The notes beneath the pieces are model-generated. The model was not told where the DNA came from. It searched no databases and worked only from the letters and a program-made list of their open reading frames with translations. Positions 22,564 to 35,285 of a stretch of 39,973 nucleotides of DNA are shown here, in pieces. Numbering within the stretch: position 1 is the stretch's first letter; every line of letters begins with the position of its first letter. Source of the stretch: a virus; the IMG/VR virus record IMGVR_UViG_3300008267_000126, positions 1 through 39,973 of that record. One strand, given 5' to 3'. The position numbers and the translations under genes were made by a program.

Positions 22564-23919
22564 TTATCCTAACGCCTGATGGCAAGACGGGCAGAACTTG
22601 GCTGTCTTCGGTGCTGGCATCCGACAAGATGGACAGAACTGAGCGAGAGCCGCTATACCTAGCATAGAGGACGCTCCCTCCATTAAGTCCGTCATCGCCC
22701 AAACTAAAGCATCAAGTCTGTCTGGTGAGAAGTCTGCGAGTGGAGTGTAGTTCGTCATCTGATCCTCTAGTTGAGGGAACGATCCGACATGGTGAGCTCG
22801 GTGTTGCTCGTAGAGAGATGCGACAGGTTCGGCTCTAAGTAACTTGCCTCGGGTTGCCGTAACTTTCTTGTAAGGGATAAGCGGATCTACTTGTCGGAGG
22901 AGAGCCTCAATCATGTCGCCTCCATTGTTGCCCTCACCGATGATGCGATCCGCTTTATGACGATAGTACGCCTCTACTGCTGTCCTCGCCCAAGCGTCCG
23001 GTCCTGCTCTACGACTCAAGTCCTCTAAGACGTAATAGTGTCCATCGCTCGTAACTCCAGCGACCACGATACCTGTTTCGTCAGAGTCCGGTCTGGACGT
23101 TACGGCAGGATCTATGGCGACTACGATCCGGATCAGAGGAGGACACTCTTGAACCCGGGTTTCATCTAAGAGCGTGTTAGTCCATAGAGCTCCGTCAACC
23201 TCGTCAATGATTTCGCCGTAAAGCTCTTGCCGTCCGAGGCGTGTTCCCTCGTAACGTAGTTTGAGATCCGCTAGAGCCGTTGGAGCCAGATTGTCTGCGT
23301 TGTCAAAGGTTGAACCCCGGGTGACTACGACAGAGCCGTCTGTCCGGGTTGCGAGGGATCGGATAAGGGACGTTGGTCTCGGAGTCGTGGTGACAATAAT
23401 ACGAGGCTTGTCGCCTAGACGTAGACCGAACTGGAGTTGATCCCAAGCATCCGTGTAGCGATAGGCCGCTAACTCGTCACACCAAGCTCCGTGATGTTGA
23501 GGTCCACGAAATCGGTCTGGTTTGTCTGCCGAGAAGAGTTTGATACGAGAGCCGTTAGTGAGGAGGATCTCTCCGAGAGACCTGTTCCAATCCTTGAGCA
23601 TCTTGTAACGTCTCAACACTCCGAGAATCCCGGACTCTCCCTCAGCACAAGTGTCTCTAGCGTCAGCGTAAGTTGGAGCGACTATCGCCCAACGAGTGTT
23701 TGGTTGAGAGATTGCTTGGTCTGCCAGCCACTCGGCCGCCGTCCTAGTCTTCCCTGCTCCACGTCCAGCCAGATAGAGCCAGACGTTCCAATCGCCGTCA
23801 GGAGCTAACTGTTCCGTTCTGGCTTGCTCCACTCTCCAGCGGTAACGGCTTGCCCGGATCCACTGAGCCGAGTAGTCCAATGATGCGTTCAATGTCTTCG
23901 TTGTAGTCGTAGTTGCCAT
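22564..23919 (-). CDS. terL: Terminase large subunit with C-terminal zinc ribbon, 451 aa
   Basis: The ATPase domain has Walker A AGRGAGKT at residues 51-58 and Walker B WCDELAAY near 136. The RNase H-like nuclease has VAIDPAVTSRPDSDETGIVVAG, RIIGEGNNGGDMIEALL and the final DRLDALVWAMTD. The last 25 residues add CPSC and CPSC pairs, a zinc ribbon that most large terminases lack. The ATG at 23919 has AGAGGTGG 9 bases upstream, although this gives a 122-base overlap with the small subunit; a GTG at 23832 is the alternative. Confidence 0.93.
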   Translation of the reverse strand: MATTTTTKTLNASLDYSAQWIRASRYRWRVEQARTEQLAPDGDWNVWLYLAGRGAGKTRTAAEWLADQAISQPNTRWAIVAPTYADARDTCAEGESGILGVLRRYKMLKDWNRSLGEILLTNGSRIKLFSADKPDRFRGPQHHGAWCDELAAYRYTDAWDQLQFGLRLGDKPRIIVTTTPRPTSLIRSLATRTDGSVVVTRGSTFDNADNLAPTALADLKLRYEGTRLGRQELYGEIIDEVDGALWTNTLLDETRVQECPPLIRIVVAIDPAVTSRPDSDETGIVVAGVTSDGHYYVLEDLSRRAGPDAWARTAVEAYYRHKADRIIGEGNNGGDMIEALLRQVDPLIPYKKVTATRGKLLRAEPVASLYEQHRAHHVGSFPQLEDQMTNYTPLADFSPDRLDALVWAMTDLMEGASSMLGIAALAQFCPSCRMPAPKTAKFCPSCHQALG

Positions 23920-24283
23920 CGTAGTTCACCACCTCTGCCTGAACCCGAGTCGGAGCTTCAAGTCCGAGGAGTTTCGCTCTCCGATCCATAACCTTTAGAA
24001 CGACCTCTGCCGCTCTCTTATCTCTCTCCACGATTGCTGGAGTCCAGAACGCTCTCTGAATCCGGTCTAACCTGTCCAACTCTAAGTCTCGGATCTCGTC
24101 AACACTTTCACGTTGAACCCGGGACACAACTCTCGCATACGCTTTCTGAGCTCCCGAGGCGTTCGCATAACCAACGGCTAAAGCAATCCTCTCCCAAGTT
24201 TCACCGGATCGCCGTAACTCAAGGACTTTATTCTCTTTATCAAACTGTTCGGGAGGGACAGACTTGCGTTTCTTTGTCGCCAC
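23798..24283 (-). CDS. terS: Terminase small subunit, 161 aa
   Basis: The product has a helix-turn-helix-like N-terminal region (KVLELRRSGETWERIALAVGYANASGAQKAYARVV). A helical oligomerisation region with ELDRLDRIQRAFWTPAIVERDKRAAEVVLKVMDRRAKLLGLEAP follows, typical of actinophage small terminases. I chose GTG at 24283 (VATKKRKS) because GAGAGAGG lies upstream and the previous gene ends 17 bases before; the longer frame overlaps the kinase. It recognises phage DNA for packaging, possibly in modified form given its neighbours. Confidence 0.82.
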   Translation of the reverse strand: MATKKRKSVPPEQFDKENKVLELRRSGETWERIALAVGYANASGAQKAYARVVSRVQRESVDEIRDLELDRLDRIQRAFWTPAIVERDKRAAEVVLKVMDRRAKLLGLEAPTRVQAEVVNYDGNYDYNEDIERIIGLLGSVDPGKPLPLESGASQNGTVSS

Positions 24284-24300
24284 TATGGTTATCCTCTCTC

Positions 24301-24831
24301 TCAGGATAAATAGTATCGTATCTGTTCGGCTAATGCTAGTGGCGTGAGGGATCCGTCTAGGTTTATTGCGCCCCAACGTTGAGCGAGGTTGAGGTGTTTG
24401 GTTTGTCTGCCTTTGAGCCAAGTCGGATTCTGTGTGGCGAGGTTGTAGGCTCTGGCTCTAGCGATACGGCGTTCTTGTGCGACTCTAGGATCGGTGTTGA
24501 GGTGGAAGATTATGGTTTCTCCATGGTCTTTGGCTAGACGTATGAACCTGTCGTTCGCTAACCTGTCTCCCTCAGAGATTACGAGTCCGTCTATGCCGTC
24601 TCTATACCAGTTGGCGACTTGGTTGATGACTGCTTGCCCTAGAGTGTCTGTTCCAGAGAACGGAGGTCTATGCCAACCGAGTTGTATTGCCGATCCGTAT
24701 GGTGTGTCGTAAGTGACGTGTTTGACCGGGTGGAGTTCTAACGTGAGTTCCGTCCAAGGTTTCACTAGCTCTGCCGTCAGAGTTGACTTACCAGATCCTG
24801 GCTCTCCCAAGATGATTAGGGTTTTAGTCAT
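24301..24831 (-). CDS. P-loop DNA kinase of the 5-hydroxymethyl-pyrimidine (5-HMUDK-like) family
   Basis: Residues 9-17 are a P-loop (GEPGSGKST). The family signatures HVTYDTPYGSAIQLG, HRPPFSGTDTLG (54-65) and ISEGDRLAND (85-94) follow. In thymidine-hypermodifying phages such kinases phosphorylate 5-hydroxymethyluracil in DNA, making the 5-phosphomethyl base that the next enzyme attacks. At 176 residues it is the usual size. It is the last gene of the modification cassette and overlaps its neighbour by 8 bases. Family membership is recognised from motifs; the substrate base here is inferred. Confidence 0.83.
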   Translation of the reverse strand: MTKTLIILGEPGSGKSTLTAELVKPWTELTLELHPVKHVTYDTPYGSAIQLGWHRPPFSGTDTLGQAVINQVANWYRDGIDGLVISEGDRLANDRFIRLAKDHGETIIFHLNTDPRVAQERRIARARAYNLATQNPTWLKGRQTKHLNLAQRWGAINLDGSLTPLALAEQIRYYLS

Positions 24832-25036
24832 TTCTTTTCTTTTCTTCTGGTATGAACCCGAGTTGTCGTTCTGGTATCGGCTCTTTGTCGGCTATGTGAG
24901 TTATTGAGGCTAGTTCCCCTTGAAACTCTCTAGGTGGTTGGCACTTATGCGTTCTTCGCCACTCTCGTATCAACTTGAGTTCGTCATCTCGGTTGACCTC
25001 TATGGCGGCTCCACAAGAGCAAGTTTCGTTTATCAT
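24824..25036 (-). CDS. Small cysteine-bearing protein in the modification cassette, 70 aa
   Basis: I chose ATG at 25036, which overlaps the FAD-gene stop as TGATG; the longer frame would run back through that gene. The product starts MINETCSCGAAIEVNRDDELK and continues LIREWRRTHKC, giving C-x-C and a later His-x-Cys that could bind zinc. The tail is unstructured (PIPERQLGFIPEEKK). No family is recognised. Its fixed place between oxidoreductase and kinase suggests a carrier or DNA-targeting role. Confidence 0.7.
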   Translation of the reverse strand: MINETCSCGAAIEVNRDDELKLIREWRRTHKCQPPREFQGELASITHIADKEPIPERQLGFIPEEKKRND

Positions 25037-25851
25037 CACAATAGGGATTTCAGCCAGTTTTCTATGGCGGCTGGAGCAATCGCATACCCGGATCGTGCTA
25101 GGTTGCCGATAGACGTAGTTGTCTCGCCAAGTTTCGGAAGAGTTGGTTCGTTGCCTTTGACTCGGGATCGTATTCCTGTGACGACTTGCCAACTTGCTCC
25201 GGGTAGAACTAACTTGGCTGTCTCGGCAACTTGTAGCATCTCCTCTACGCTTCTAATAGCGTCTGCCTCGGTCTTAGCGATACTAGATCCGAGACGTGTC
25301 TCTCCTCGGTTCTCTGCGATTGTTAGCGTATGGTATGGACGGATGTGGTGGATCCTAAGCGGCTTATGGTCTAGGACCGCGTTCGTTGAGATTAGTGTTG
25401 CTCCCCATAAGTCTTCGTGAGGGACAGAGAGGTTGCCTCCGTAAGCTCCTGTTGCGTTTAGGACGGCATCAAACTCGTATTGGTCATCTTGCGTGACGAT
25501 GATGTTGTCGTTGACGAATCGGACTTGCTCGGAGATGTCTGGCGTGACGAGACTTGCCTCCGGGTCAACCAACCACCAATCTTTCTGGAGTTTGACGTTG
25601 GAGTTACGCCAGTGCGAGACGTATGCGTGTTGAGTGATTGCCGATCCCCAAGTCTCGTACCATCGCCACGATTGCTGGATTGTCCCTTGGAGATCCTCTT
25701 TGAACCATTGAGGTCTGATGGTCGCTAAAGCACATCTGGAGGCGGCTTTCCCGGGTGCGTGGTCAAAGACTGTAACGTCCATGCCTAGTTGTCTGCCGAT
25801 TCTGGCCGCTGACGATCCGGCTATACCCGATCCGATAACTCCAAGTTTCAT
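25036..25851 (-). CDS. FAD-dependent oxidoreductase (glycine/D-amino-acid oxidase-like) of the modification cassette
   Basis: The N-terminus has a dinucleotide-binding fold with GSGIAG at residues 7-12 and VTVFDHAP ending the second strand. Later DAVLNATGAYGGNL and the C-terminal VTGIRSRVKGNEP and GNLARSGYAIAPAAIENWL match the DAO-fold ends. In the M6-type pathway an FAD enzyme of this kind cleaves the glycine attached to the base, leaving 5-aminomethyl. ATGA overlap and GGAG couple it to the transferase gene. The 271-residue length is short for a DAO enzyme, which are usually 350 or more. Confidence 0.82.
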   Translation of the reverse strand: MKLGVIGSGIAGSSAARIGRQLGMDVTVFDHAPGKAASRCALATIRPQWFKEDLQGTIQQSWRWYETWGSAITQHAYVSHWRNSNVKLQKDWWLVDPEASLVTPDISEQVRFVNDNIIVTQDDQYEFDAVLNATGAYGGNLSVPHEDLWGATLISTNAVLDHKPLRIHHIRPYHTLTIAENRGETRLGSSIAKTEADAIRSVEEMLQVAETAKLVLPGASWQVVTGIRSRVKGNEPTLPKLGETTTSIGNLARSGYAIAPAAIENWLKSLL

Positions 25852-26753
25852 TCTGGTCTCCTCACTACCAACTTACCTGTTTCTTTGAAGACTCGCTTAC
25901 GTTTCTGGTCTACGCCTGTCCAGCCGTTCAACTCCCCGAGATAGTGGTGAGGGATAACCCGAGCTCTAGCCTCAAACATTACTTGAGCGAGAGGACTTGG
26001 ACACTTGAGGAGGTTCTCCAACATAGCGTCTATGTCCATGCCGAGATAGTAATGACCCTCTGCGAGAGCGTATACGTCACAGAGAGACGTTTCAGCCTCT
26101 TCTATCTTTGCGTCCACTCCAAGTTGCTCTAATTTTCCAAGGAGGTCTATTGAGATCCTATCTAACTCTGCGACATCTTCAAGTCCGTTGCCGTCCGGGA
26201 GGTTGTCGTAGAGTAACGCAAGTCCTTTTCTTGGACCGGAGGAGTGAGCGTGTCCCATGTCGCTTGCTTGTAGAGGAAGGTCGTTTATCTTCCAAAGCAT
26301 TTCTGCCGTCTTGTAGGATGCCCAACGTCCGTTGCCGTAGATTGACTCTAACGCTCCGACAACCCGGTCCCAAGATTGTTGCGGGGAGTCGTGGACTAGG
26401 TATTTACGGATCCAAGCGAGGAGGCCGCCATTGTTTTCTGCGATGGAGACGAGTTCTCCGAGGTGTCTCTCTAGCTTGCTTGGTACTCTATGAGCTCTTC
26501 GTTCTGTCCCGGTCGGCAACTTGAGGAGGTCTAGTCTCGGGATTGTTGGCTCACGATGTTCTTGAAAGACTTGGAGCGTTGAGTTCATGTTGTAGTAAGC
26601 GACATAGAGAAACGTCAACCATACTGCTTGCTCCTCGGAGAGTTTTAGGATCTTACCGAACTCTTTGAGGCAAGGATAAACGTCATCTATTTCGTTGCTG
26701 GCAACTGACTCTGCGTGAAACTGTGCGTAAGTCTGCCAATCTAGGCGACTCAC
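25848..26753 (-). CDS. Amino acid:DNA transferase-like protein (alpha-glutamyl/putrescinyl thymine pyrophosphorylase family)
   Basis: The product shows features I recognise from the aGPT-PPlase/amino-acid:DNA transferase family: LTFLYVAYYN (47-56), YGNGRWASYKTAE (139-151) and DMGHAHSSGPRKGL (165-178). A helical C-terminal half ends FEARARVIPHHYLGELNGW. These enzymes displace phosphate (or pyrophosphate) from a phosphomethyl base with an amine such as glycine or putrescine. It starts with GTG in a GTGA overlap with the dioxygenase gene. Which amine is used cannot be read from sequence; the neighbouring FAD enzyme favours glycine. Confidence 0.8.
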   Translation of the reverse strand: MSRLDWQTYAQFHAESVASNEIDDVYPCLKEFGKILKLSEEQAVWLTFLYVAYYNMNSTLQVFQEHREPTIPRLDLLKLPTGTERRAHRVPSKLERHLGELVSIAENNGGLLAWIRKYLVHDSPQQSWDRVVGALESIYGNGRWASYKTAEMLWKINDLPLQASDMGHAHSSGPRKGLALLYDNLPDGNGLEDVAELDRISIDLLGKLEQLGVDAKIEEAETSLCDVYALAEGHYYLGMDIDAMLENLLKCPSPLAQVMFEARARVIPHHYLGELNGWTGVDQKRKRVFKETGKLVVRRPE

Positions 26754-27613
26754 TTGACCTTTGTTGTGCCTGTTTTGAGATCCTCAGCCATGCCGTCTTC
26801 ACGTTTAGTCCGAGACTCTTTGGCCTTAGCGGTCTCAACTGCGTAAGTGAAACAATCTTTCATGCCTCGGAGAGCGTAATACACGACTGAGTAGCGATAA
26901 GCTCCCTCCTTTTTAGGAGTCATTGGAGTTACGCCATGGACGTACTTGTAACCCGGGAAGAAACTTACCCAACCATCTCTAGCCGTAAAGGTGAAGTCGT
27001 ATTCGGGGAAGTGGAGATAACCTCCAGCCATGTCTCTACGGATTACTGGCATCGCTGACCAAGTTGCGAAGTTGAAGCCGTCTCGGTGATACGGCAGAGT
27101 TGACGACTTGTTGACTACTCCTGAAGTCCAGAGAGCGTCATCGGTCATCCTCCACTCGTTCGCTAACTCTGCGTTCTCCAGATTGTTTACATCGTGGTCG
27201 TAGAGATCCGGTGCGAACTCTTTGAACATTTCGGCGAACTTTTCGGCGAACTTGATAAGGACGGCGTGTTCGTCAGGTTGCTCTAAAGCTAGAGTTGTCG
27301 GACGGCAGGACTCTCTACGTTGAAAGATTTTGCGTGGAGCCATACCGAACGTACGGCTAATGTTCTTTAGTCCGGTTGATTGTCTAATGGTGGATCCATA
27401 CTTGATGTTTAGGACGGCGGCTCTCAATAAAGCAACCTCCTCTTCCATCGGGAAACAAGCGAAGATTGGCTCTTCCGTATCATCGTCAATCCAAATCCCC
27501 GGTCCATGTTGTGGCGGGTTGATGTCCGGGACTTCTGTTCCGACTAGCTCTGTCGCTTGGTCTTCGGTCAGAACTCGCTTGACTCTATGGATCGGTAACT
27601 CACTCAGTTTCAC
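26750..27613 (-). CDS. TET/JBP-family 2-oxoglutarate/Fe(II) DNA base dioxygenase
   Basis: The double-stranded beta-helix core is clear. The iron ligands are H176 and D178 in PYHRDGFN and H226 in YKYVHGVTP, and the 2-oxoglutarate-binding arginine is R240 in AYRYSVVYY. Between them are GGYLHFPEYDFTF and DGWVSFFPG, as in phage TET/JBP proteins. It would hydroxylate the methyl of thymine or 5-methylcytosine in DNA. The GTG start at 27613 has GAGGAGG about 6 bases before it. Sequence alone does not say which base it uses. Confidence 0.87.
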   Translation of the reverse strand: MKLSELPIHRVKRVLTEDQATELVGTEVPDINPPQHGPGIWIDDDTEEPIFACFPMEEEVALLRAAVLNIKYGSTIRQSTGLKNISRTFGMAPRKIFQRRESCRPTTLALEQPDEHAVLIKFAEKFAEMFKEFAPDLYDHDVNNLENAELANEWRMTDDALWTSGVVNKSSTLPYHRDGFNFATWSAMPVIRRDMAGGYLHFPEYDFTFTARDGWVSFFPGYKYVHGVTPMTPKKEGAYRYSVVYYALRGMKDCFTYAVETAKAKESRTKREDGMAEDLKTGTTKVK

Positions 27614-28268
27614 GCGGTGCCTCCTCAGCGTACTCGGTTTCTAGTAGATGGACTATTGCGTCTGCGTTTGAGGCGATGTTGTTCTTGTTTCGGTAGTCCA
27701 ACAACTTCTCCATCAACCAGACGTAAGTTGCGTTCGGGTAATCGGCAATCAGCATACGAGTTGCTTTTTGAGCGTAACGTTCAGCGTACTCCTCCAGACT
27801 TGGAATCGTAAGTGTCCCGCTCTGTCCTGTCTCGCCTTTGCTAACTGCCGAGAACGCCGACACGCTTGGAGTCTCTGACTCCTCTAGTAGAGCTTTCAAG
27901 TCGTCAAGATCCGACTCTTGATACCCGGAGCCATCAAGATCCGGGAGAGTTGAAAGAAGAGCCAAGAGTTTCTCATTGTCATACTCACCTAGATCCGCAG
28001 ACCTGTTGTCTATGGCAACAATCTTGGCGGCCGTCTCCTCGTCAACGTTTATGAAAGTTACGGCAATCGTGTCCCAACCGAGTTGTTGAGCGGCTTGGAA
28101 CGTATGATTGCCAGCAAGGATTTCATTGTTGTTGGCGTTTACGGTGATTGGTTTGTATTGACCATAAGTCTCTAGGGACTTGGCGATTAGTGATACATCG
28201 CTCTTTCTCGGATTGTTCGGGTAAAGATTGAGATCCGATAAAGGTACTTGCTCTACTTTGAGTGTCAT
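27600..28268 (-). CDS. ParB-like nuclease-domain protein, first gene of the modification cassette
   Basis: The N-terminal ParB/Srx-fold domain has VPLSDLNLYPNNPRKSDVSLIAKSLETYGQYKPITV and ILAGNHTFQAAQQLGW (GNHT replacing the usual GxxR). AIDNRSADLGEYD follows. The C-terminal third is helical. Single-domain phage ParB proteins of this kind are often neighbours of base-modification genes and may guide or license modification. It lacks the DNA-binding HTH and dimerisation domains of chromosomal ParB, so it is unlikely to bind the parS site at 32623. Confidence 0.85.
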   Translation of the reverse strand: MTLKVEQVPLSDLNLYPNNPRKSDVSLIAKSLETYGQYKPITVNANNNEILAGNHTFQAAQQLGWDTIAVTFINVDEETAAKIVAIDNRSADLGEYDNEKLLALLSTLPDLDGSGYQESDLDDLKALLEESETPSVSAFSAVSKGETGQSGTLTIPSLEEYAERYAQKATRMLIADYPNATYVWLMEKLLDYRNKNNIASNADAIVHLLETEYAEEAPRETE

Positions 28269-28294
28269 AACTCCTCCTTGGCTCTATTGTAGCA

Positions 28295-28708
28295 CTAGAA
28301 CGGAAGAGAGTCTGCTGGCAGACTTGTTGGAGTCGCTGGCACGAACGGAGAGTCACCCGGAGTGAACGGAGCGTCTGTTGAGAGTTGATCCTTGTCGTGA
28401 CGGATCGCCGTAGAGACAACCTCGGCTTTGATGACTAGGTTCTTGATGGTTGAGCCATCCTTTTCGTAAGTCTCCTGAAAGAGCTCTCCAGATACGATAA
28501 CCCGGGTTCCCTTGACGTATAGGACCTCTGGCAACCGATCCCAAACGGCAACTCTGAACCAAATTGTTTCAGCGTCAATCCACTCGCCGTTCTTCTTCTC
28601 CCGAGGAGTTACGGCTACCGTTAGATTACTTACATACTTGCCCTGTTTGGTCTGACGGACCTCAACGTCTCTTCCGAGATTGCCGATGATTGTTATAGGG
28701 ATGTTCAT
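28295..28708 (-). CDS. ssb: Single-stranded DNA-binding protein
   Basis: This is a typical OB-fold SSB: ITIIGNLGRDVEVRQTKQGKYVSNLTVAV, then WFRVAVWDRLPEVLYVKGTRVIVSGEL. A disordered Pro/Thr-rich linker ends in the tip ADSLPF, equivalent to the acidic protein-interaction tail. At 137 residues it is close to normal length. It coats single strands in replication and recombination. Confidence 0.93.
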   Translation of the reverse strand: MNIPITIIGNLGRDVEVRQTKQGKYVSNLTVAVTPREKKNGEWIDAETIWFRVAVWDRLPEVLYVKGTRVIVSGELFQETYEKDGSTIKNLVIKAEVVSTAIRHDKDQLSTDAPFTPGDSPFVPATPTSLPADSLPF

Positions 28709-29925
28709 TTTGTTTCTTCCTTATCTTTTAGTAGTTGTTTTGGCAGTAAGATCCGTAAAGCGATTTCTGCCTGTTGTGGAACAACGCCGTTGCCAGCGAG
28801 TTTCAACTCTTCGTTTCGGGTCAATCCACAATTGGTTATCCAACCCTCGGGGAGTCCCATCATCCACTCTGTAAATACGCTAGAGAGTCTTTGAGCTCCG
28901 TCTCTGCCATCTGGTTTAGTTGGCGATGGTGCTGGTCTTCCGAGAGTCGCCTCCCATCGTCTGATGGCTGGCTCGTATTTACCCCAAATGTCCGGGTTGT
29001 CTACACCGGATCTAGCAACGTTCGTGAGAGCGACTTGATTGCCGTTGGCGATACGCTCCTCAGCCGTAATGGTCGTATCTTGTTTAGTTCCCTCGGAGGC
29101 TAGAACAGTTGGCAACAACTCCACCTCAACTTTCAAACGTCTATGTGGATTACCCTCGGCAACCTCGGAGGAGGCGGCACCTCGGTTGTCGCTCACAGTT
29201 ACAGTTGGCAATAACTCTACTTGGTCTTCAAGTCTTCCCTTAGTTGCTCCAGACTCTATTTGAGAGCGAGTAGATCCGTTCGCAGAGCTAGTTCGTGGAG
29301 TCCCAAGCAACATTACGTCTTCCCTTAAGTTCCCGGTCGTAGACCGGACAGAGCCTCCCTCAACTCCTCTACGCAACTGACGCTCTAACGCCTCACCCTC
29401 TCTTGCTGGAAGAGAGTCCATCGTGTTAGGAGTCGGAAACAAGTCAATACCCTCCTGCTCCAAACGGATCGCAACTCCGAGACTTGCTCCGGGCATACCC
29501 GAGGTACGTCCAGCCTCGTAATCTTCTCTCCTCTGGAGATAGTCCTCTAAATCTTCATCGTGATTACGGATGTGACCAACAGTCGGAGTTGGAAGAGTCA
29601 CGAGGTCTACAATCTGGTCTCTCAACATGACGTAATGTCCTTTAGCCTCTTTGACTTTTGCCGAGACTGCTCCACCATCACCCTCAACGGCAACTGGAGT
29701 TTGAAACAACTTTTCTTCACCATCCGTCCCGAGACGCAACGATGAAGATCCGTTCCCTCCTGTGCGGAGCTCCAGCATCGGAAGCTCGTACGCCTGTCCA
29801 CCTAGCGTCATACCCGAGACTGGCCAGGTCCCCGAGAACAGCTCCAAGTGCTCGCAATATAGGCTCGCTATCGGTTGCTCCCATACACCACGAACATCGT
29901 TCCAGATGGCTATTGGCTTTAGCAT
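28705..29925 (-). CDS. C5-cytosine methyltransferase, C-terminal part (target-recognition region and motif X)
   Basis: The start region (LFSGTWPVSGMTLGGQAYELP) and the repeated LLPTV/LLGTPRTSS blocks match the C-terminal part of phage Dcm-like methylases. So does the end (FTEWMMGLPEGWIT, then KLAGNGVVPQQAEIALRIL, motif X). It lacks motifs I-VIII, which are on the separate frame 29717-30277. The start at 29925 lies inside that frame, giving about 209 bases read in two frames. Together the two chains could form a two-subunit enzyme. ATGA coupling links it to ssb. Confidence 0.75.
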   Translation of the reverse strand: MLKPIAIWNDVRGVWEQPIASLYCEHLELFSGTWPVSGMTLGGQAYELPMLELRTGGNGSSSLRLGTDGEEKLFQTPVAVEGDGGAVSAKVKEAKGHYVMLRDQIVDLVTLPTPTVGHIRNHDEDLEDYLQRREDYEAGRTSGMPGASLGVAIRLEQEGIDLFPTPNTMDSLPAREGEALERQLRRGVEGGSVRSTTGNLREDVMLLGTPRTSSANGSTRSQIESGATKGRLEDQVELLPTVTVSDNRGAASSEVAEGNPHRRLKVEVELLPTVLASEGTKQDTTITAEERIANGNQVALTNVARSGVDNPDIWGKYEPAIRRWEATLGRPAPSPTKPDGRDGAQRLSSVFTEWMMGLPEGWITNCGLTRNEELKLAGNGVVPQQAEIALRILLPKQLLKDKEETK

Positions 29926-30277
29926 TTAGTATTCCTCTCACATTTTCAATAACTACGAGTTTTGGTTGTAACGTTTCTATTGCTCTAGCGAACTCGCTCC
30001 AGAGTCCACTCCTTGTTCCCTCTTTGAGTCCTGCTCTCTTCCCTGCGACACTCAAGTCTTGGCAAGGGAATCCTCCAGTTAGAATCTCAACAGGTTCAAC
30101 TTGAGTGAAGTCTACGGATCTTACGTCTTTATAGTTTGGTACGTCCGGGTAATGTTTCTCAAGGACCTTGCTTGGAGCTTTATCAAACTCACAATGCCAG
30201 ACAACTCTTCCCCCGGTCACGTTGGAGACGGCGATGTCTAGGCCGCCGTAACCACTAAAGAGCGAACCGATCCTCAC
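29717..30277 (-). CDS. C5-cytosine methyltransferase, catalytic N-terminal part
   Basis: Catalytic motifs are intact: motif I LFSGYGG (6-12), motif IV PCQ with nucleophile C72, motif VI ENV (111-113) and motif VIII HRRERIF (172-178). The protein stops at residue 186, before the target-recognition and motif IX-X region, which are encoded by 28705-29925 in another frame. The enzyme would transfer methyl from S-adenosylmethionine to cytosine. It starts with GTG in a GTGA overlap. A sequencing frameshift is an alternative explanation, but the conserved blocks overlap rather than abut. Confidence 0.82.
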   Translation of the reverse strand: MRIGSLFSGYGGLDIAVSNVTGGRVVWHCEFDKAPSKVLEKHYPDVPNYKDVRSVDFTQVEPVEILTGGFPCQDLSVAGKRAGLKEGTRSGLWSEFARAIETLQPKLVVIENVRGILNAKANSHLERCSWCMGATDSEPILRALGAVLGDLASLGYDARWTGVRASDAGAPHRRERIFIVASRDGW

Positions 30278-30936
30278 GACTTGTCTCGCTCTCTGATGAT
30301 TGCTGACCGGATCTCAATGCTCAAGTCTTCTGGCACCATAGAGCGTTCTTTGCTTGAGGCTCTGCCCTGAGTCCCTCCTGAGTGGTCTCCTCTAGGTGAG
30401 GGAGTGTGGCAAGGATCTCCAGCCTTACACGCTGGTCTAGCCGTCCACCCGGGAACGAATCCCCACAAGTCCGTTGGTTTCATCCGGTCGTCTCCGTATT
30501 GGCAATACGAGACTGTTTGTCTCGGGAGTCCCTCTACAACAGATAACTTACGGAGCATTCCTCTCGGGTTCTCTATGATGAATCCGTATCTTGGACGTAT
30601 AGCCTCAACTAGCATCCGAGCTTGAGCGACTAGCCGCTGATTTAGAATCGCCAACTCTGACTTAGGTTGAGGATTATCTCCTCCACTAATCCAATGAAAC
30701 GGAATAGACGCAACGGAGAACGCCGTACAAGGAGGACTAGCCCAAATGAAGTCCGGTTGTCCGTAAGTCGCTAAGAGGTATTCGGGAGTCAACGTCAATA
30801 CGTCTACGTTCTCGGTTGCCGAGAATTGCGGATCTAACTCAAAGGAGATGATTGTGTCGCCAGCATCGGCGAACGCTTTAGTGCTTGATCCGGTCCCAGA
30901 GAAGAAGTCATAAATAAGTAGTTTAGAGTCGCTCAA
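30274..30936 (-). CDS. Phage DNA methyltransferase-like protein (Dcm-related, compact)
   Basis: The 220-residue product has a Rossmann motif FFSGTGSS (11-18), SPPC with candidate nucleophile C70 (67-70), and IENPRG (121-126). QTVSYCQYGDDRMKPTDLWGF follows, then a Cys/His segment (CKAGDPCH..PRGDHSGGTQG) found in a widespread phage family annotated as DNA cytosine methylase. The start is TTG at 30936 behind the AAGGCTAAACA block. It is distinct from the split enzyme downstream. Confidence 0.78.
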   Translation of the reverse strand: MSDSKLLIYDFFSGTGSSTKAFADAGDTIISFELDPQFSATENVDVLTLTPEYLLATYGQPDFIWASPPCTAFSVASIPFHWISGGDNPQPKSELAILNQRLVAQARMLVEAIRPRYGFIIENPRGMLRKLSVVEGLPRQTVSYCQYGDDRMKPTDLWGFVPGWTARPACKAGDPCHTPSPRGDHSGGTQGRASSKERSMVPEDLSIEIRSAIIRERDKS

Positions 30937-33677: not shown

Positions 33678-34103
33678 TTACTCCTTGATGTTTGGTATTG
33701 CGAGTTGTATTAGTTCGGTTACGAGTATGTGCGTGAGTCCAGAGGAATCAAATGCCGGATCGGGAACTTTGGTGAAACGCTTGGACTCTTCGGGGAGATA
33801 ATCTACAAGCGACTTGGCGACTCCTCCTAGAGTCGCAACTGCTATAAGATGCGAGTCTTGAAATCCGATTACTACATCAGCCCAGTTGATTAGATCCTTA
33901 GTAAGAGCCTGAGAGCGATGTTGCTCCATGCCTACATAGCCGAGACTTGCTAATCTCTCTCGCATCTTTTTAGCCATTGGTTTATTAGACTTGAGGTTGG
34001 TGGCCGCTCCGAGAATCTGCCAGTCCGGGTGGACGGCTCTCAACATAAACTCAGCGGCAGCGGATCGGTTTATGTTGCCAGTACAAACAAATAAGACTTT
34101 CAT
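33678..34103 (-). CDS. Low-molecular-weight protein tyrosine phosphatase-like protein, 141 aa
   Basis: The start MKVLFVCTGNINRSAAAEF carries the C-x5-R active loop (C7 to R13), and VPDPAFDSSG near residue 110 supplies the general-acid loop. I chose ATG at 34103, overlapping the upstream stop as ATGA. These phosphatases act on phosphotyrosine or sugar phosphates; arsenate reductases share the fold. It may act on a host signalling protein or on a phosphorylated intermediate. Confidence 0.85.
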   Translation of the reverse strand: MKVLFVCTGNINRSAAAEFMLRAVHPDWQILGAATNLKSNKPMAKKMRERLASLGYVGMEQHRSQALTKDLINWADVVIGFQDSHLIAVATLGGVAKSLVDYLPEESKRFTKVPDPAFDSSGLTHILVTELIQLAIPNIKE

Positions 34104-34945
34104 TTCTTGAACTTCGTTTCTTGATAACCAACTTCTAGCTTGTGATTGTAGGGACGGAACTGAGGGAATATCCAATCTCTGGACTCGTAGAGATCCTTTG
34201 CTGGAGTTTGGTCAGTTATAGCCGCCGTGACGAAGGACTTACACCAACTAACAGCAGACTCTATCTCTATCCAATCGGCAGTCCCGGGGAAATGACGGAA
34301 CTCTATTGTGCCGTTCTTGAATAGGGATCGGAGATTCATTGCTGGTCTAGGTGCTATGTGAAAGAGACGTAGACCCGAGGCTGAGAGAGGAGCATGAGAG
34401 GCGTAGATGTCCGTTGGATAGGATGCTCGCATAAGCTCTGCGAAACGCTCCTCAGGAAGTGAGTAGTGATGGCTGATTAGTCTGCGTCTATAACGTTTCA
34501 TCGCTCCCTTGAGTTCCTCCGGATCGGCGTAATCTTCTTTAGTTGGTTTAGGAATCGGTTCAACTACCGAGAACACGAACTTTTCGTTCTCTCTAAAGTA
34601 GAGAGCGACTTGTTTCATCAAGTTAACGTCTTCGGCTAGTCCCGGAACGGCAACGTGAACGTGAAGATTACAGCGATAGTTGATTGTCGGTTTTAGAAGT
34701 TCGGCTAGTTGAAAGGCTATGTGTGCTTGCTCCATTGGAGTTGAGGTTGGTTTGGTGTTGATTTCGCCACCGATTGGATAGCGTCCGGTCGGATCGTTGG
34801 CTCTGCCGTTGGAGTTTACGATTGTGTAATCTTGCGTGTCCCAAGATCCCAAATCCTCGGGAATCTCAATCCGTCTATCAACGTCTGCCCACTCTAGCTC
34901 TAATCCGTAAGTCATAGCGAAAACTCTATTGGCAACCTCAGACAT
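34100..34945 (-). CDS. Amidoligase-like enzyme (COOH-NH2 ligase fold), 281 aa
   Basis: The product has the pattern of the phage/bacterial putative amidoligase family: TYGLELEWADVD at the N-terminus, YPIGGEINTKPTSTP, RCNLHVHVAVPG and NGTIEFRHFPGTADW. These fit the glutamine-synthetase-like active site. Such enzymes join a carboxylate to an amine using ATP. I chose ATG at 34945 (MSEVANRVF) because AGGA lies 7 bases before it. Its substrate is unknown; a link with the aminomethyl base pathway is speculative. Confidence 0.75.
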   Translation of the reverse strand: MSEVANRVFAMTYGLELEWADVDRRIEIPEDLGSWDTQDYTIVNSNGRANDPTGRYPIGGEINTKPTSTPMEQAHIAFQLAELLKPTINYRCNLHVHVAVPGLAEDVNLMKQVALYFRENEKFVFSVVEPIPKPTKEDYADPEELKGAMKRYRRRLISHHYSLPEERFAELMRASYPTDIYASHAPLSASGLRLFHIAPRPAMNLRSLFKNGTIEFRHFPGTADWIEIESAVSWCKSFVTAAITDQTPAKDLYESRDWIFPQFRPYNHKLEVGYQETKFKK

Positions 34946-35285
34946 TGAGATCCTGAAACTTGGAGACAAGCTCGCTCCAGCCGTCTAGGTCGTAGTAAGT
35001 CCAATCCTCGTTCTCTGTCCCTCCGTCTTTGACTAAATAGAGTGTCTGATCCGAGAGGCTGATTACGAGGTTGATGGACTTGTTGTCGGATGGCATTACT
35101 GCGAGCCAGTTCTGGTATCGGTTGTGGACGTACTCCACTACGTCCCAACGTTCGCTCAGTTCGTAGAGCGGCGAGGCAATTAGTCTCTTGAGGATTGTCC
35201 ATTGGTCTTCGTACCCGGGTTGAGTTCCTTGCCAATCTGGATTGGTGATTGTTACTGGAACAGTTGAGATCCGTACGCAGTTCAC
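34938..35285 (-). CDS. Hypothetical protein, 115 aa
   Basis: GTG at 35285 has GAGGAGG nine bases upstream and overlaps the previous stop as GTGA. The product is alpha/beta with DQWTILKRLIASPLYELSERWDVVEYVHNRYQNW and a C-terminal TLYLVKDGGTENEDWTYYDLDGW. No family is recognised. It is adjacent to the amidoligase-like gene. Confidence 0.7.
   Translation of the reverse strand: MNCVRISTVPVTITNPDWQGTQPGYEDQWTILKRLIASPLYELSERWDVVEYVHNRYQNWLAVMPSDNKSINLVISLSDQTLYLVKDGGTENEDWTYYDLDGWSELVSKFQDLNV

Follow-up and report, generated by a model that had tools for sequence, protein, structure and literature searches.

A predicted TET-initiated thymine hypermodification cluster next to apparently independent C5-methylases in an uncultured phage

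Gene content of the locus

The window analysed here is a complete virus record of IMG/VR (IMGVR_UViG_3300008267_000126; 39,973 bases) from an uncultured phage that is related to phages of actinobacteria. Its minus strand carries a run of mostly overlapping genes for C5-type DNA methylases, a single-strand DNA-binding protein (SSB), a ParB-like protein, a TET/JBP-type dioxygenase (TET), an amino acid:DNA transferase (AADT), a flavin enzyme and a kinase. The question is whether TET oxidizes 5-methylcytosine (5mC) supplied by the methylases or thymine. We consider it quite probable that TET, AADT, the flavin enzyme and the kinase form a TET-initiated thymine hypermodification cluster of which the methylases are independent. 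The genes concerned are:

30274..30936, minus strand, small C5-methylase-like enzyme (Pfam PF00145 DNA_methylase, 3.8e-5; phrog_757, 2.1e-27)
29717..30277, minus strand, N-terminal half of a split C5-methylase (PF00145, 6.8e-39, residues 1-184; motifs I, IV GGFPCQ, VI ENV and VIII RRER)
28705..29925, minus strand, C-terminal half of the split C5-methylase (phrog_1008, 1.6e-58; phrog_10223, 3.6e-17; target recognition and motifs IX-X, ..LAGNGVVPQQA..)
29717..29925, minus strand, 209-nt stretch shared by both halves and read in two frames, each of them conserved
28295..28708, minus strand, SSB (Pfam SSB, 1.3e-19), between the methylases and ParB
27600..28268, minus strand, ParB-like protein (Pfam ParB_N), upstream of TET in most loci having that flank
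26750..27613, minus strand, TET/JBP-type 2-oxoglutarate (2OG)-Fe(II) DNA dioxygenase (Pfam Tet_JBP, 2.1e-9)
25848..26753, minus strand, AADT (Pfam ADDT, PF18724, 2.8e-22, above cut-off)
25036..25851, minus strand, flavin enzyme (Pfam DAO flavin oxidoreductase, 3e-10)
24301..24831, minus strand, P-loop kinase (Pfam Ploopntkinase3, PF18751, 5.7e-21)

Pfam and PHROG matches confirm at these coordinates the methyltransferase, TET/JBP, kinase, transferase and flavin adenine dinucleotide (FAD) genes of the original prediction. The open reading frame (ORF) at 28705-29925 has no Pfam match and is recognized through PHROG, by methylase families 1008 and 10223; its suggested pairing with 29717-30277 proved right, as the two constitute one split methylase. 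The methylases had also been placed just upstream of TET. They do lie upstream, at a distance of about 1.1 kb, but are not its immediate neighbours because the SSB and ParB genes intervene.

The TET dioxygenase

According to its predicted structure the window TET is a true TET-fold enzyme, i.e. a double-stranded β-helix with the HxD...H triad and the 2OG arginine. The metal residues H176, D178 and H226 as well as R240, the 2OG arginine, are invariant among 57 relatives taken from viral contigs and phage genomes, and so is N181 of the HxDxxN signature. The AlphaFold model (pLDDT 82.6) matches human TET2 with a Z score of 19.2 and NgTet1 with 17.6. A phmmer search of the PDB with the single sequence gave no significant match, whereas the TET profile did reach NgTet1. 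The best database match is the TET of Rhodococcus phage Tonitrus (50% identical); the TET of a sister locus (L007/L095, where L numbers are our locus handles) is 92% identical. Only two residues are private to the window and L007 enzymes and none of them is close to the active site, which gives no hint that the substrate changed in the lineage with the methylases. Five distant phage TETs show HxDxxD in place of the HxDxxN of the window clade. This signature was considered as a decider of the substrate and dropped, since human TET2 has the asparagine too.

Occurrence of TET and of the methylases

A whole-record search detected PF00145 in seven of 68 TET-bearing phage records (5/45, 0/9 and 2/14 in the individual sets), a count to be read with the caution that viral contigs may be incomplete and that related phages do not sample independently. 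It was absent from all 13 complete actinophage genomes with TET (Tonitrus, ChrisnMich, Kozie, Kharcho, LittleMunchkin, Phelemich, MO526, CloverMinnie, Terij, LilMcDreamy, KayaCho, Acadian and Hangman). Among these Kozie, MO526 and Phelemich possess the full set of TET, AADT, FAD enzyme and kinase in genomes without PF00145. Five of the 20 viral contigs with a length of at least 35 kb contain a methylase, the window and L007 being two of them. Where else PF00145 turned up in the 45-record set, the methylase is found about 5 kb (L016), 11 kb (L037) and 7 kb (L082) away from TET. Even TETs that are 76-80% identical to the window enzyme lack the upstream methylases of the window; L016 has a partial PF00145 match at the contig end, at the distance given above. 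The methylase families of the window occur at this place upstream of TET only in the window itself and in the 92% sister. A dedicated C5-methylase partner of this TET clade, or a conserved position for one, was thus not found in the 68 records and the 13 complete genomes. The methylase next to TET in P12024L, tried as a C5 partner, is not of the C5 type.

The reverse comparison, with methylase-locus flanks of 10 kb or less, leads to the same picture. TET accompanies the small methylase only in the window's sister among 80 loci. In 15 of these 80 a gene matching the N- or C-terminal half of the split methylase is present as well; TET is missing from 14 of the 15, and eight of these 14 have matches to both halves. 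Likewise, among 15 loci with the C-terminal half TET is seen in the sister only. As the two methylases recur together elsewhere, they appear to be a passenger pair in the window. A search for TET (PF12851) over 50 methylase records gave no match, but the positive control likewise gave none, and the result serves merely to back up the locus counts for the small methylase and the C-terminal half.

A swappable slot between TET and terminase

Among the nearer relatives the order ParB, TET, slot, phrog_645 and large terminase (TerL) is kept while the content of the slot varies. In the window the far end of the slot is marked by the following genes:

23798..24421, minus strand, phrog_645 protein before the large terminase (phrog_645, 7.9e-33; synteny in relatives)
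22564-23919, minus strand, TerL, labelled by position and by the terminase genes of relatives, without family match

The gene sets found in the slot comprise AADT with FAD enzyme and kinase, AADT with kinase, kinase alone, AADT (phrog_3271) with a pyridoxal phosphate (PLP) enzyme (phrog_3650) and kinase, a TAGT-like glycosyltransferase (weak match) and unnamed others. The slot labels, assigned by us from ORF sets and annotated records, need at least 23 changes on a tree of 57 TET sequences (27 with the residual class), the least possible number for all nine groups being eight. The set of AADT, PLP enzyme and kinase appears on three branches (L019, L052 and L056). Its AADT and PLP genes are homologous to genes of the Ackermannviridae (about 29-32% and 37-40% identity, respectively), in whose genomes 5-(2-aminoethoxy)methyl-2'-deoxyuridine (5-NeOmdU) replaces about 40% of thymidine (PMC11721090). 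The name PLP is taken from the annotation of some Ackermannviridae homologues and not from a Pfam match. In L019, which has such a slot, TET shares 77% identity with the window enzyme over the tblastn segment, and the L019 record (39,972 bases) contains no PF00145. The most economical reading of these exchanges is one shared handle, 5-hydroxymethyluracil, which TET would make from thymine.

Two slot families behind TET are without Pfam match, namely those in L026 (10873-12242, about 308 and 148 aa) and L018 (4510-5484, 324 aa), and are candidate decorating enzymes. The unnamed slot sets c6+c7 and c8 match neither Pfam nor PHROG (slot loci L002-L094; window slot 24301-26753).

Relation to known systems and proposed chemistry

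The cluster belongs to a known, though largely predicted kind. The cluster of phage Tonitrus, described as a thymine hypermodification system, is itself a prediction (PMC11955845). It shares with the window a run near the terminase of ParB, a TET of the same clade (50%), AADT (aGPT-Pplase2; about 40%) and a kinase, and the Tonitrus genome is devoid of a C5-methylase. In the window the slot contains the flavin enzyme in addition, and two methylases form a cassette upstream. In the Microbacterium phages Kozie and MO526 and the Mycobacterium phage Phelemich the four genes likewise stand just before the terminase genes; their proteins are about 22-47% identical to those of the window, and their records carry no annotation of a modification system.

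The likeness to the 5-NeOmdU pathway of the Ackermannviridae (ViI/CBA120) consists in the AADT family and in the AADT and PLP homologues behind sister TETs. Reportedly (Lee et al., 2018), phages of the ViI/CBA120 type supply 5-hydroxymethyldeoxyuridine at the nucleotide level, whereas here TET would produce 5-hydroxymethyluracil in DNA and a flavin enzyme stands in place of the PLP enzyme. Thymidine hypermodification of the ViI/M6 kind involves a hydroxymethylase of the thymidylate-synthase type acting on dUMP. The window has the AADT but not this hydroxymethylase, and its family (PF00303) is absent from 25 of 25 TET records, the window among them, which leaves TET as the apparent hydroxymethyl source. 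We therefore propose a TET-initiated version that works like the ViI/M6 kind without being a strict member of it, TET replacing the hydroxymethylase. The situation differs from cytosine hypermodification by phages with TET and C5-methylase. With those the window shares a TET-fold dioxygenase and a C5-methylase in the same genome, but its clade has no conserved methylase partner and carries AADT, FAD enzyme and kinase downstream instead of glycosyltransferases.

Profiles of the downstream families were compared with solved structures, whose molecule names are the wording of the depositors. The AADT family reached 25qc ("Amino acid:DNA transferase domain-containing protein", 2.7e-16) and 8z2m/8z2n ("Glycinyltransferase", 3.4e-7), and the best match of the flavin family was 8z2o/8z79 ("Flavin-dependent lyase", 6.6e-13); its weaker matches include glycine oxidases. 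For the kinase the profile search gave no specific match to a solved structure. The window kinase is 36% identical to the kinase gene of Tonitrus, in whose cluster a 5-hmU DNA kinase is listed (PMC11955845).

The structure matches of AADT and flavin enzyme together with a putative activating kinase lead to a predicted glycyl-methyluracil that is then converted to 5-aminomethyluracil. TET would hydroxylate the C5-methyl group of some DNA thymines to 5-hydroxymethyluracil, the hydroxyl of which would be phosphorylated by the kinase to 5-phosphomethyluracil. AADT might then displace the phosphate by an amino acid, most likely glycine, and the flavin enzyme, as a lyase or oxidase, would cleave the glycyl adduct to 5-aminomethyluracil. 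This order is modelled on the pathway that Lee et al. are said to have worked out. What the analysis shows directly are the families of the genes, the TET fold, its catalytic residues and the patterns of co-occurrence and exchange; the base attacked, the succession of steps, the amino acid, the product and the targets are inferred. The split and the small methylase would represent a separately acquired cassette for ordinary (or similar) cytosine methylation, presumably for restriction avoidance, and would not feed TET.

Thymine or 5-methylcytosine

The original prediction set an aminomethyl-cytosine at methylase sites beside a thymine derivative with independent methyltransferases and held that sequence alone does not decide. 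The alternative is a legitimate one, as phages with C5-methylase, TET and glycosyltransferases make modified cytosine according to a statement in PMC12730594 that cites Burke et al. 2021, and as in the Methylophilales phage Melnitz-2 (L251, 3206-5390) the C5-methylase overlaps a distant TET gene by about 20 nt. The claim of undecidability turned out too strong. Thymine and independent methylases are favoured by the co-occurrence counts in both directions, by the exchange of thymine-pathway enzymes behind similar TETs and by methylases travelling without TET. That thymine is the sole substrate of TET is, on these grounds, a well-supported proposal, and an aminomethyl-uracil formed from some DNA thymines would be the most likely modified base.

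On a cytosine pathway the methylases would make 5mC, which TET would oxidize to 5-hydroxymethylcytosine (5hmC) for conversion by kinase, AADT and flavin enzyme to aminomethyl-cytosine at methylase motifs. The single same-strand run of methylases and TET in the window and in L007, the documented cytosine-modifying phages and Melnitz-2 speak in its favour, as does a TET fold whose nearest relatives are 5mC enzymes. Yet the same TET and downstream set is kept in methylase-free relatives, the methylases are found without TET and closely similar TETs are coupled to the thymine-type AADT and PLP enzyme. Moreover, the Melnitz-2 TET is from the distant HxDxxD subfamily; this phage is a good candidate for a true 5mC-to-5hmC coupling, in contrast with the window. 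We thus regard the cytosine pathway as improbable. Very unlikely, too, is a dual pathway in which TET and the AADT, flavin and kinase enzymes act on both thymine and methylase-made 5mC, so that one genome would contain aminomethyl-uracil and, at methylase motifs, aminomethyl-cytosine. The window has both gene sets in intact form, NgTet1 acts on thymine and TET-type enzymes can be promiscuous; but by its sequence the TET of the lineage with methylases does not stand out, and no relative shows a conserved pairing.

Several points weigh against thymine and the chemistry proposed for it. Both gene sets stand in the window in one run on the same strand, and phages without a methylase could in principle rely on 5mC made by the host. 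All nearest solved folds of TET belong to 5mC or N6-methyladenine (6mA) enzymes, with no thymine-acting TET/JBP structure (no JBP oxygenase) among the listed structure matches, and the HxDxxN residue is not diagnostic given its presence in a 5mC enzyme, human TET2. At an identity of about 29-40% to the Ackermannviridae proteins, a shift of base specificity is conceivable. A literature search found no nucleoside measurement for any TET of this clade. Finally, the flavin profile match mainly covers the FAD-binding half and is strongest there. The last point also favours a different product with thymine retained as substrate: the steps may follow another order or involve an amino acid other than glycine, and the final base may be 5-hydroxymethyluracil or another amino-acid adduct. 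The variation of the slot behind similar TETs (kinase alone, AADT and kinase, glycosyltransferase-like and others) fits this as well. It is opposed by the four ORFs of TET, AADT, FAD enzyme and kinase, which are all intact with their family motifs and recur as a full set in the distant phages Kozie, MO526 and Phelemich. We consider such a different product less likely than not.

The TET family is known mainly for 5mC oxidases, and phage TETs beside methylases invite the same reading. Here methylase adjacency is misleading, with TET conserved with or without methylases and the enzymes behind it swapped. The predicted thymine substrate is directly testable in phages for which M. smegmatis and Microbacterium already serve as culture hosts. 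The large set of TETs provides candidate tools for writing 5-hydroxymethyluracil in DNA, and the slot (AADT with FAD enzyme, AADT with PLP enzyme, glycosyltransferase-like and others) a catalogue of candidate decorating enzymes.

The split and the small methylase

In the split methylase motif VIII is the last motif of the first ORF; the target-recognition region and motifs IX-X are encoded by the second ORF, which uses a different frame. This arrangement is also found in L007/L095 and in more distant, divergent phages of actinobacteria and is therefore not a sequencing frameshift. In the N-half frame, 4-fold degenerate sites have an identity of 0.60 within the 209-nt overlap compared with 0.36 outside (10 sequences; permutation p 5e-5), and the second frame retains the recognizable motif WNxxRxVWE..ExFSxTWPxSG, which together indicate dual coding. 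The start coordinate of the second ORF is tentative, because in some relatives the codon aligned with it is not a standard start. The pair probably constitutes a working two-subunit enzyme and not a frameshifted pseudogene. Its architecture is that of the two-subunit C5-methylases M.AquI, with separate ORFs split after motif VIII, and M.EcoHK31I, with overlapping frames. It differs from both in belonging to another sequence family that is widespread in actinobacterial phages and in its dual-coding overlap.

The small methylase shows SPPC and ENP motifs, no large target-recognition domain and, in the alignment of relatives, an invariant R198-S199 near the C-terminus. It is C5-methylase-like, with putative base and donor. 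An identity with the cytosine carboxymethyltransferase CmoX was considered: SPPC is present, and R198 was equated with CmoX R350 by eye only. It was rejected since the partner CmoA, which makes carboxy-S-adenosylmethionine (Cx-SAM), was not found (TIGR00740 in none of nine records including the window; no recurrent CmoA-like neighbour in 79 loci).

Further observations

Throughout the clade a ParB-like gene usually precedes TET, as it does in Pelagibacter phage HTVC112P (L248); its product is possibly involved in targeting or regulation of the modification. Several RefSeq records of mycobacteriophages (L003, L087, L092 and L093) call the TET gene queuine tRNA-ribosyltransferase, and in L003, L087 and L092 the kinase-family gene is named terminase small subunit; both names look doubtful. 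Elsewhere in the window an Amidoligase_2 family protein (34100-34969) adjoins a low-molecular-weight phosphatase family protein (33678-34175), an unusual cargo.

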